Below are positions 18,665-48,790 of a DNA stretch of 64,000 nt, in pieces. Under the pieces are notes generated by a model, which worked only from the letters and a program-made list of their open reading frames with translations, did not search any database and was not told where the DNA came from. Location: assembly GCA_947449695.1 (NCBI GenBank), contig CANFST010000007.1, positions 1 through 64,000 on the forward strand, read 5' to 3'. Within the stretch, counting starts at the first letter, position 1, and every line of letters begins with the position of its first letter. The position numbers and the translations under genes are program-made. Origin of the DNA: Chitinophagales bacterium. GTDB taxonomy: Bacteria; Bacteroidota; Bacteroidia; Chitinophagales; CAIODY01.

Positions 18665-18768
18665 TTGCATATAGTGGCAACTCTATCACCGCAAGCCGTC
18701 CATTTTTGGTTGGCTTGTGGCAACTGAGTGTGTTTTTATTTGTTCGTAAAAATAGTTTTTTATATAAA

Positions 18769-18847
18769 AGTTCGTTGAACTTAGTCCATAAAGCTATAGG
18801 AAATATTTAATCGTCATACATTCCTGTAGGAAAAAGTTCAACGAACT
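18769..18847. repeat. Inverted repeat after the interrupted 19-kb gene
   Basis: AGTTCGTTGAACTT at 18769-18782 and AAGTTCAACGAACT at 18834-18847 are exact inverted copies, and each is also nearly palindromic. The spacer is 51 bp with no frame. It could be a terminator-like structure or a small palindromic element. Confidence 0.55.
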
Positions 18848-18883
18848 GGGCTTTTACTGCCCCCTGAAAACTGCTAACTGAAT

Positions 18884-19552
18884 TTATCCATTTATTGGGG
18901 CTGAAATCATATCGCTCCATGGGCCTGTACCATCGGTGCCTTCATAGCGAAACCAGTAATACACGGTTTTGCCAGCATCTGCGCCGTCAAAATGGTTCAC
19001 ATACTTGCTTTTGCTGGTGCTGCCTACAAAGGTCATTTCGCTTTGGCTAACGGGTGCAGGCCCACCTATTTTTTCCCAAATCTGTGTCGCTCTGGCACCT
19101 TCGGGCTTTGCTTTTTTGCCCGTAGTGCTGTTGCTGATATTAATAGTGTGTTCTAATCTTGCGCTGCTATCTATCTTGCCTTGAGGCTAATCAGTAGGTG
19201 TAGGCAATGGTGCATGATGCCCACCTGCTGGCGGTGCAATGCGCAATGTGTTTCTATCCTGCGTAGTTAAAACACTCTGCGGAATGTCATGATAGATATT
19301 GCGCAGGGCTGTTTGCATCGCTTCGTCAGCCTTGTTTTTGTTATCTACCATTGTTTTGGTTTTGGTGTCAGGGTTCTGACAAAATGGGTAGCTGTTGTTC
19401 CACGAAGTAAAAGCCGCCAATAAAGCATTTTTGTTAGGCGTTGAAACCAGCAATCGAGCTAAATTGGCTGCATTGGTTAAATACGGCACTGCGGCAATGT
19501 AATAATCATTGCGGTCAGCTTCAGCACTTGGAAATGGTCCGTTGTGTGGCAT
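18884..19552 (-). pseudogene. Uncharacterised two-part protein with C-terminal FnIII-like region, interrupted by TAG
   Basis: The frame from ATG 19552 runs 121 codons (helical part, ending PLPTPTD), meets TAG at 19189-19187, and continues in the same frame for 100 more codons to TAA at 18886-18884. The downstream part is clearly protein-like (KAKPEGARATQIWEKIGG, VYYWFRYEGTDGTGPWSDM). The 222-codon total and the order of motifs match the intact 225-residue protein at 47495-48172 (GKPDGVQ..., GPWSEMF...). So one base change, a readthrough codon or a sequencing error has split it. I do not recognise a function. Six 21-bp repeats lie 43 bp upstream. Confidence 0.75.
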
Positions 19553-19595
19553 AAAATTATTGTTTAAGGGTTAAGAAATTACGTGTAAAAGTGCA

Positions 19596-19721
19596 TTGGG
19601 CGGATGCCCACAACTTTTGGGCGGATGCCCACAACTTTTGGGCGCACGCCCACAATGATTGGGCGGATGCCCACAATCTCTGGGCGGCAGCCCCTAACGC
19701 TTGGGCAGCAGCCCAAACCAT
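19596..19721 (-). repeat. Array of six 21-bp tandem repeats, each a mini-hairpin
   Basis: Six units of exactly 21 bp run from 19596 to 19721. On the plus strand the type unit is TTGGGCGGATGCCCACAACT plus T. Units 1 and 2 are identical; others vary mostly in the last five bases and in the loop, while GGGC...GCCC is kept throughout. The array is upstream of the interrupted gene (start 19552). The rest of 19553-20006 is AT-rich with no gene. The frame through it spells an LWASAQK-like heptad, but its flanks are not protein-like. Confidence 0.9.
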
Positions 19722-21546: not shown

Positions 21547-22644
21547 TTATTGAAAATATTTTATTGGATTAGTGCTAATTTTAGTTTTAAGGAGCGCAAA
21601 GGTAGGATATTTTTTTGATAAAACTTCAAATAATAAGTCTATTGTAAATTGCTCACTTTCATAGTGCCCAACATCAGCAATCACTATATCATTTTCAGCA
21701 TCAAAAAACTCATGATATTTAAAATCGGCAGTAATAAAAAAATCGGCATTAGCCTGTTTGGCCTTGTTCAGTAAAAAACTCCCTGAGCCACCACAAACAG
21801 CCACTTTACGCACTCCCCTGCCTAACAGTGCGGTGTGACGAATGCAATCAGTTTTCATTTGCAACTTGACCAAATTCAGAAAATCTACCTCATTCATTTC
21901 TTCGCTCAATTCACCTACCATACCTGCACCAAATTGCGGATGTTTATTATCTAACAAATAAATATCGTAAGCCACTTCTTCATAAGGATGAGCACTCAAA
22001 AGAGCTGCGATTATTTTTCGTTCCAAATGCAACGGGAAAACAGTCTCAATTCTTATTTCATTTTCATGATGTATTTTGTTTTTCTCACCCACAAAAGGAT
22101 TTGTGTTTTCATTACCCCTGAAAGTGCCTACTCCTTCTACATTAAAACTGCATTCGTCGTAATTGCTAATAATACCGCAGCCTGCATCAAACAAAGCTTT
22201 TCGTACATCATCAGCATGCGCTTTTGGCACAAAAGTTACCAGCTTTTTCAACTGATCATTTTTAGAAGCCAATATTTTGCAATTTCGCAAACCCAGTTTT
22301 TCAGCTATTTTATTATTTACACCATCCATCACATTATCCAGATTAGTGTGGATAGCATAGATAGCAATATTATGCTGAATGGCTTTCATCACCACCCTTT
22401 CTACATAATTTTTTCCATTCAATTTTTTTAACCCTTTGAAAACAATAGGATGATGTGCTATGATTAAATCAACTTTTTGCTCAATGGCTTCATCAATAAT
22501 CTCCTCTGTTGAATCTAAGCAAATCAATGCTTTATGAATGGCAGAAGAAGGATTGCCAACTATCAAGCCTGCATTATCATAACTCTCCTGCAAGCTGCTC
22601 GGAGCTAAAGTTTCAAGATAATTTATTATTTCCGCTAAAATCAT
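21547..22644 (-). CDS. NIF3-like dinuclear metal-centre protein
   Basis: The 365-residue protein belongs to the NIF3/DUF34 family (YbgI/YqfO), hexameric ring proteins with two metals per subunit. Metal ligands are in AHHPIVFKGLK and IYAIHTNLDNV near the N-terminus and in ADVGHYESEQF near the C-terminus. A central insert domain of about 130 residues (VTFVPKAHADDVRKALF) is the PII-like insertion of the longer subfamily. The reaction is not settled; GTP cyclohydrolase-like activity has been proposed. Start and length are normal. Confidence 0.9.
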   Translation of the reverse strand: MILAEIINYLETLAPSSLQESYDNAGLIVGNPSSAIHKALICLDSTEEIIDEAIEQKVDLIIAHHPIVFKGLKKLNGKNYVERVVMKAIQHNIAIYAIHTNLDNVMDGVNNKIAEKLGLRNCKILASKNDQLKKLVTFVPKAHADDVRKALFDAGCGIISNYDECSFNVEGVGTFRGNENTNPFVGEKNKIHHENEIRIETVFPLHLERKIIAALLSAHPYEEVAYDIYLLDNKHPQFGAGMVGELSEEMNEVDFLNLVKLQMKTDCIRHTALLGRGVRKVAVCGGSGSFLLNKAKQANADFFITADFKYHEFFDAENDIVIADVGHYESEQFTIDLLFEVLSKKYPTFALLKTKISTNPIKYFQ

Positions 22645-47494: not shown

Positions 47495-48172
47495 CTAAGG
47501 AATCGTACACACAAACATTTCACTCCACGGACCTTGTTGGTCTTTTGTATTCACCCAGCAACCAAAGCCATACAATCTTTGTCCCGATTGAGCAGCCGTA
47601 AAACTCATGGTGATAGGCGTTCGGCTCATAGTTTTAAAAAGCGTACAAGCCTCAGCTGAAGCAGGTGCAGCGGTGCCAATGAAATACACCATCAAACATT
47701 TTTGCACCCCATCGGGCTTACCACGGCGGCTGCTGCCATCTGAGCCAATTTGTTGTTTATACGAAATTTTCAAAGTCCTACCCACCCCTTGTTTTGCCTC
47801 CATCACAGGCCTACCATCGGGCGTAGGCACAGGCGTACGCTTACCAGCATGAGGTTTCACCCCACACAATAGTTTTTGTGCATCCGTCATAGTGGTGTTG
47901 TACTGAATTTGTGTTTGAATAAACGGACGCAACTTGGCTATGAAAGCCTTCTTAGCAGCGTTTTTAGCATTGCGCTGCACCGTAGTTGCGTTCTTTTTGT
48001 TTTTACATAACCCATAAGCAGTTGACCATGTAGTTTGAAAAGTACCCAGCCCCGTCAACTGCGCCAACACTATACCCCAAGCCACTTGGTTGGTAGTACA
48101 TTGGTTAATCAAATTGCTTTGATATGCATCAAAGGGCATATCACCTCTCGGAATTAAATCTGTTGTTGCCAT
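47495..48172 (-). CDS. Uncharacterised two-part protein with C-terminal FnIII-like region (intact paralog)
   Basis: The 225-residue protein has no signal peptide. Residues 1-110 are helical; a proline-rich hinge PVPTPDGRP follows; the last 100 residues look like one fibronectin-III-like unit: RTLKISYKQQIG, SRRGKPDGVQKCLMVYFIG, TMSRTPITMSF and GFGCWVNTKDQQGPWSEMF. The end motif GPWSEM is shared with the interrupted gene at 18884-19552 (GPWSDM), as are KPxGV and P-T-P. I know similar hypothetical proteins in Bacteroidota but no function. A 21-bp-period repeat array lies 65 bp upstream, as at the other locus. Confidence 0.8.
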   Translation of the reverse strand: MATTDLIPRGDMPFDAYQSNLINQCTTNQVAWGIVLAQLTGLGTFQTTWSTAYGLCKNKKNATTVQRNAKNAAKKAFIAKLRPFIQTQIQYNTTMTDAQKLLCGVKPHAGKRTPVPTPDGRPVMEAKQGVGRTLKISYKQQIGSDGSSRRGKPDGVQKCLMVYFIGTAAPASAEACTLFKTMSRTPITMSFTAAQSGQRLYGFGCWVNTKDQQGPWSEMFVCTIP

Positions 48173-48237
48173 AACATTTGTTTTTTATTGTTTAAAAAAT
48201 GAAATCCGTTAATAATGAAATAGTGTAAATCAGTTTT

Positions 48238-48489
48238 GCGCAGCTATTTTTTAAAGTTGCGCATTGTGCTGCTCGTTTCTGAAAAACAACTGCCCATGTT
48301 TAAACTAATGCTGCCAGCCTTTTGCACCCCTACCCTTACTGCCCGATTTTATAGCTGAAACTTGTGCAGCTATTTTTTAAACCTGCGCATTTTGCTGCAA
48401 GAGTTTAAACTTTATAGCCCAGCATTTAAAAAACCAATGCTCAACTTCCAACTAATGCTGCCGCTTTTTAAACTAATACTGCCAGCAGC
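48238..48489 (-). repeat. Degenerate 21-bp-period array (12 units) upstream of the intact paralog
   Basis: Read on the minus strand from 48489, twelve consecutive 21-base units keep register to 48238. Units 1, 2 and 9 share the core GGCAGCATTAGTT. Units 5-6 and 11-12 form a repeated pair (for example AAAATGCGC or CAATGCGC followed by TTTAAAAAATAGCTGC). Most units start with A-A-G or A-A-C. The best frame contains stops in four units, so the array is not protein-coding. It is the counterpart of the cleaner array at 19596-19721. Confidence 0.75.
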
Positions 48490-48790
48490 TATACACCATT
48501 TTAAAGAACTTTAAAAACCTTTTTTGCATTGCCGATTTTATTATGCTAAAAGGCTGATGTAAAATTGTGGGTAGTTGAAATGAATTTCCTATAGCCATAA
48601 ATGGTTAATTAAATATGGTTAACCAAATATGGTGATACGCAGCTTGAAAGGCTTATGAATAAAGGGTTTGAAGAAGTGCTATTGCAAAGCACTTAACCAA
48701 ATGCTAAAATTTGGTGTGGTGATTGTGGGGAGGGGAAAGATGGGAATATTTTTCTTCTTGGTATCAATAAAAGGAGATAAAAATTAAATA
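48490..48790. other. Gene-free AT-rich stretch between array and KAP gene
   Basis: With the array this completes the 618-bp gene-free region 48173-48790. It contains AATATGGTTAACCAAATATGG near 48615-48640, with a TGGTTAACCA palindrome, and GTGCTATTGCAAAGCAC near 48678, a small hairpin. The GTTAACC palindrome could be an operator. I see no clear promoter for the array itself. Confidence 0.3.

Follow-up and report, generated by a model that had tools for sequence, protein, structure and literature searches.

Arrays of 21-bp units ahead of genes for a helical-bundle/FN3 protein family in Bacteroidota: a putative two-part module

The window, a 64,000-nt stretch of a Chitinophagales bacterium genome (GCA_947449695.1, contig CANFST010000007.1, positions 1 to 64,000), carries two loci at which an array of 21-bp units precedes a gene of one and the same protein family (Table 1). 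At locus 1, all six units (6/6) are composed of a GGGC-N4-GCCC core and a variable tail and are arranged head-to-tail; the sequence TGGGCNNNNGCCCA occurs five times in the window, where 0.03 occurrences are expected, and every one of them lies within this array. The six exact units 43 bp upstream of a gene, described in the earlier note, are confirmed by TRF and by the pattern count, the gene starting at the minus-strand ATG at 19552. This gene matches the family profile over its full length (E 2.9e-45) with one TAG, located in frame after codon 121 (19187-19189, minus strand). A family gene thus does lie in the interval 18884-19721 reported previously as a single locus, but the interval conceals the stop. 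Because the halves on either side of the TAG both match the family, this copy appears to be a (recent) pseudogene, a recoded gene or an assembly error. A REP-like inverted element (AAAGTTCGTTGAACTT ... AAGTTCAACGAACT) occupies window positions 18766-18858, immediately downstream of the gene. An empty-site comparison between locus 1 and a genome of the same genus was uninformative, synteny being broken on one side.

Table 1. Array and gene features of the window, and loci of a second protein family in genome G547
Feature	Position	Strand	Description
Locus 1 gene	18884-19552	-	helical bundle + FN3 family; 222 codons, one internal TAG
Locus 1 array	19596-19721	- (that of the gene it precedes)	six 21-bp units; TRF period 21
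Locus 2 gene	47495-48172	-	intact; 225-aa helical bundle + FN3 protein; AlphaFold pLDDT 90
Locus 2 array	about 48220-48492	-	degenerate; 21-bp period with 7-bp sub-period
boxA-like motif GTTCTTTAAA	48500-48509	-	in the leader of the locus 2 array; profile from rRNA leaders of related genomes
Second-family locus	L116:9532-10455
Second-family locus	L118:4822-5784
Second-family locus	L119:7713-8723
Second-family locus	L120:8571-9512
Second-family locus	L126:631-1296

The same arrangement recurs at locus 2, as had been claimed, in a degenerate array with copy spacings of 21, 63, 84, 126 and 147 bp. Its 21-bp comb score of 0.356, against 0.265 in shuffled sequence (z = 7.6), was reached by 0 of 2,000 shuffles. 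Besides 21 bp, the periods 14 and 28 bp, likewise multiples of 7 bp, are raised, which points to a 7-bp sub-period in this array. Most other arrays show no such increase, and a sub-period of 7 bp was rejected as a general property of the arrays, being seen only at locus 2 and in a few others.

The genome of the window contains a third copy (C1:206-880, L002) with nine clean 21-bp units unrelated in sequence to those of loci 1 and 2, and a distant fourth copy on C63, also with an array. A AGTTCGTCGAACT palindrome pair similar to the REP-like element near locus 1 flanks the C1 copy, of which a same-genus relative (L018, G031 C123) has lost both the N-terminal half and the array. Elsewhere on C1, at about 21981-22254 (L065:1981-2254), a period-41 tandem array with the palindromic core GAACAAACTTTGTTC and an unrelated unit precedes two small ORFs that are related to each other and have hydrophobic N-termini. 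Solo arrays, which lack an intact gene, are present on C19 and C20 of the window's genome (G000), and several occur in G547. Those at C19:28318-28500 and C20:28540-28740 (L062 and L063) are sisters of the locus 1 array that comprise 8 and 9 units, respectively; their gene is truncated or missing, and they are bordered by REP-like palindromes (GCCATCGTTGGTGTTTG...CACCGACAACGGCT). The three sisters, with 6, 8 and 9 units, differ only by whole units and substitutions, and repeat number therefore varies among copies within one genome, as in contingency repeats. The GGGC/GCCC mini-hairpin, earlier described as conserved, is present in all six locus 1 units but is limited to that locus and its sister copies, the cores of other loci being different and often palindromic.

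Homologues of the protein were searched for in 398 genomes at order level and 395 at phylum level. They were found in 14 and 5 of these, respectively, with the genome of the window included in each count, and often with several per genome; four homologue loci come from named assemblies of Bacteroidetes. The family may reach beyond Bacteroidota, into Planctomycetota in particular. For 44 homologue loci, the lag between 10 and 69 bp giving the best 84-nt self-match was determined in the 450 nt upstream of the gene. It was 42 bp in 22 loci, 21 bp in 11 and 63 bp in 7, and hence a multiple of 21 in 40 of the 44, compared with 50 of 536 control windows (28 of 277 from the 64-kb window and 22 of 259 from the flanks of homologue loci). 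The corresponding Fisher P is about 5e-32, the true significance being weaker because related loci are not independent. One further locus has a best lag of 43 bp (21 + 22), and the three remaining are locus 2, whose period is detected by the comb test, and L034 and L038, upstream of which no array was found. The gene usually begins within about 30-200 bp after the array, and the search downstream of homologue genes gave no strong 21-bp array.

Sampling of three carrier genomes over 1.24 Mb gave 34 tandem arrays, of which 29 have a period of 21, 42 or 63 bp, a fraction biased upward by the choice of stretches partly for family members, whereas none of the three tandem arrays in 800 kb of two genomes without a detected homologue does; array counts per genome refer to sampled stretches throughout. 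The order as a whole clearly does not share the 21-bp arrays. In a genome without the family (G016), a 19-bp palindromic array, GTGAGACACGAACCATAAC, lies at L146:15122-15325, a few hundred base pairs from an ORF similar to REP-associated transposases. A second protein family in G547, of about 310 aa, combines two helical regions with an FN3-like end. Its genes also follow 21-bp arrays, and its N-terminus aligns with that of the first family (hhalign probability 88.6). The earlier suggestion that the array and the protein family belong together as a unit is thus strongly supported, since most homologues do have the upstream periodicity. Arrays away from the gene, which had been named as a point against such a unit, do exist as the solo arrays of C19, C20 and G547, but none was found in the 800 kb of the two non-carrier genomes. 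That array and gene constitute a two-part module across several families is well supported.

The AlphaFold model of the locus 2 protein is confident and consists of a helical bundle followed by an FN3 beta-sandwich. The FN3 fold is backed by PDB matches with E values down to 4e-5, while the sequence match to Pfam FN3 remains below acceptance. Searched alone against the PDB, the helical domain returned nothing better than E = 0.9 and no structural relative. Pfam, NCBIfam, PHROGs and PADLOC yielded no accepted family match for the protein, PADLOC returning nothing for three family members tested, and the product contains no recognisable DNA-binding domain. Most family members are basic, and no N-terminal signal peptide is evident by eye in the family sequences. 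No phage or plasmid homologues of the locus 2 protein were found, nor did viral contigs searched with a locus-1 subfamily query give a match.

The units of the arrays are dyad-symmetric, with a mean z of 2.1 versus 0.2 in matched controls, in which random genomic 21-mers were made into arrays that diverge in the same pattern (P about 6e-12); clear symmetry is absent in 14 of 37 arrays. Mismatches are balanced between G-T (102 cells) and A-C (91 cells), and this symmetry without a strand (G-U) preference is the expectation for DNA and counts in favour of sites recognised as DNA. Curvature from phased A-tracts (AA/TT at 10.5 bp) was rejected, its mean z being about 0. Between loci the units differ and the period is constant: only close homologues have units in common (mean similarity 0.43 versus 0.31), and paralogues that are 62-80% identical in protein can carry unrelated units. 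Array and protein showed no significant co-evolution, whether the N- or the C-terminal domain was considered. What persists is the period, the symmetry and the place of the array, while unit sequence turns over rapidly. The flanks of 37 arrays show by eye no common ends, whether leader and tail or terminal inverted repeats. Near-identical repeats with unique spacers of constant length are absent, the units being degenerate throughout and 21 bp in all.

A motif on the gene strand bears on whether the arrays are transcribed. GTTC[AT]TT precedes the array start by 23-67 nt in eight loci, including locus 2, and rRNA leaders from three Bacteroidota genomes contain GTTC[TA]TTGA, which is read here as a putative boxA antitermination element. 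A profile made from the rRNA leaders matches 8 of 39 array leaders in the sense orientation, where 1.2 are expected, and 2 against 1.1 in antisense; at the same threshold, it has no match in far-upstream or spacer DNA. This result is regarded as suggestive because the rRNA comparison came after the motif had been spotted and some of the loci are related. The boxA-like motif suggests, for about a fifth of the loci, that transcription runs through the array. boxA elements are reported upstream of CRISPR arrays (PMC7862264) and are active in the 5' UTRs of some genes (PMC5725501). The Bacteroidota promoter motif TTTG-N-TANNTTTG is not enriched upstream of, within or downstream of the arrays.

Three functions had been proposed for the array, namely a transcript of short hairpins, a protein-binding platform and a recombination substrate for the adjacent gene; we infer that the platform fits best, and the recombination substrate found no direct support. 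The preferred reading, to which we assign a probability of about 0.35, is that a cis-acting, length-variable array of symmetric sites spaced two helical turns apart lies in the leader of the gene and controls it. Dyad-symmetric units at this spacing would allow a dimeric DNA-binding protein to load side by side along one face of the helix, and the candidate binder would be either the gene product itself or a host factor. At least sometimes, the array may be transcribed as an untranslated leader, aided by a boxA-type antitermination signal. Shifts of unit number in whole 21-bp steps would tune occupancy and expression, and unit sequence turns over quickly while period and symmetry persist. Counted in favour of such cis-acting control are the association with the gene, the upstream-only position, the specificity for carrier genomes, the non-coding nature and dyad symmetry of the arrays, the gain and loss of whole units, the boxA-like motif on the gene strand and the mostly basic products. 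On the other side, sequence-specific binding by the product poorly predicts unrelated units in paralogues and a similarity that tracks neither domain. Further points against are the lack of a recognisable DNA-binding domain and of any structural relative of the helical bundle, solo arrays with no gene to control, the absence of promoter-motif enrichment around the array, the arrays without clear symmetry and the restriction of boxA to roughly one fifth of loci.

Other readings have been weighed against the same data. The array could act as RNA, either as a boxA-protected leader or as a separate transcript, its string of hairpins forming a scaffold that would most likely serve the adjacent protein in autocontrol or in a ribonucleoprotein. 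The placement of the boxA-like motif ahead of the array on the gene strand speaks for this, as does the folding of the arrays, which is better than that of column-permuted arrays (mean z -2.2); the antisense strand, however, folds just as well (mean z -2.4), there is no preference for G-U above A-C, and Rfam gave no match. Covarying RNA hairpins were rejected, as an excess of double changes (41 vs 18) disappeared against column-permuted controls that choose their best axis. With strands folding equally, mismatches balanced and the double-change excess equal to control, selected RNA hairpins are not supported; the short transcript hairpins proposed earlier are disfavoured, even though the boxA-like motif suggests a transcribed array, and an RNA scaffold is considered unlikely. 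Far less probable still is a coding role, in which each 21-bp unit would supply the 7 codons of a heptad in a repeat peptide, read in an upstream frame that is coupled to the gene. Locus 1 does read as WASAQxL heptads on the gene strand, ending 4 bp before the ATG, and L002 reads as IENQIDG, but a codon-phase test over 37 arrays gave a mean z of -0.28 with 0/37 at P < 0.05. Open sense frames number 21 against 17.5 expected from column-permuted arrays, and several arrays have stops in every frame. The arrays are non-coding as a class, and coding heptads are contradicted as a general explanation.

Fast unit turnover and the existence of 42-bp higher-order copies would also suit functionless satellites, in which hairpin-prone units expand and contract by slippage or unequal exchange, are carried along upstream of the gene and are copied elsewhere, as might be read from the solo copies beside REP-like palindromes on C19 and C20 and the solo arrays of G547. 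Such satellites are nevertheless improbable given the upstream place in 40 of 44 loci across families, its repetition in a second protein family, a period fixed at 21 despite free unit sequence, and the absence of such arrays from the two non-carrier genomes sampled. Solo arrays also share units in trans with gene-linked ones (C19/C20 with locus 1, L109 with L126 and L121 with L046), one of them, L109, being 73% identical to the array ahead of the second-family gene at L126. Together with symmetric sites at integral helical spacing, this sharing is compatible with a centromere- or iteron-like attachment system, in which the product would coat its own and the solo arrays while FN3 tethers these to a partner, the role of the system being to organise or partition DNA, not to regulate a gene. 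We regard this as quite unlikely, for there is no ParA/ParM-type NTPase among the ORFs read next to the genes, several modules reside on one chromosome, and the locus 2 protein has no plasmid or phage homologues.

The cis-acting array can be compared with several known systems. Plasmid iterons and par centromeres, such as parCAB of Myxococcus pMF1 (PMC3235114), likewise comprise arrays of imperfectly symmetric sites near a gene and dispersed elsewhere; in pMF1, the sites adjoin the gene of their binder and mediate its autogenous repression. The present modules differ in having neither an NTPase partner nor a known DNA-binding domain, in being chromosomal with many modules per genome, and in that binding is only putative; among the ORFs read next to them, no NTPase or replication initiator was seen, and there were no plasmid matches. 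The promoter repeats of Haemophilus influenzae hmw1A/hmw2A (PMC2424069) also form a tandem array of variable number upstream of genes of a multicopy family, and their number correlates with expression. Those repeats, however, are 7 bp and identical at both loci, whereas the arrays here are 21-bp, locus-specific and dyad-symmetric, and precede a product without an evident export signal. BrickBuilt, a MITE of Porphyromonas gingivalis (PMC4596501), is another intergenic element of Bacteroidetes with tandem units (23 nt) gained and lost between strains, but it has a common unit sequence, a conserved leader and tail with terminal inverted repeats, and no attached gene family.

CRISPR arrays headed by boxA, as cited in PMC7862264, resemble the 21-bp arrays in being non-coding, in combining a conserved core with a variable stretch and, at some loci, in the boxA-like head. 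They are set apart by exact repeats with unique spacers, which the degenerate 21-bp units lack, and by Cas proteins; no cas genes were present among the neighbouring ORFs read at a subset of loci. REP elements with RAYT transposases (PMC3733652) are short palindromes that are sometimes tandem. Unlike them, the arrays have a fixed 21-bp head-to-tail period, a core that differs per locus and no attached tyrosine transposase; a common palindrome tagged GTAG or CGTC and accompanied by a RAYT gene was not encountered, the attached gene not being a transposase.

No description of the arrays or of the protein family was found in open-access PMC text. Somewhat short of an even chance is given to the possibility that they represent an undescribed class of Bacteroidota module, in which a helical-bundle/FN3 protein is paired with its own rapidly diversifying, 21-bp-phased non-coding array, which would act either in the form of a DNA lattice or through a boxA-protected transcript, and solo arrays serve as extra targets. 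As a system, the array-protein module may be categorically new, while its mechanism may resemble that of iterons or contingency repeats. Linkage, a locked period and dyad symmetry that are kept while unit and protein diverge form the pattern expected of a functional pair. If confirmed, the module would add a new kind of cis-acting bacterial repeat beside CRISPR, REP, iterons and contingency repeats, and it would provide a handle on a multicopy protein family that has no annotation.
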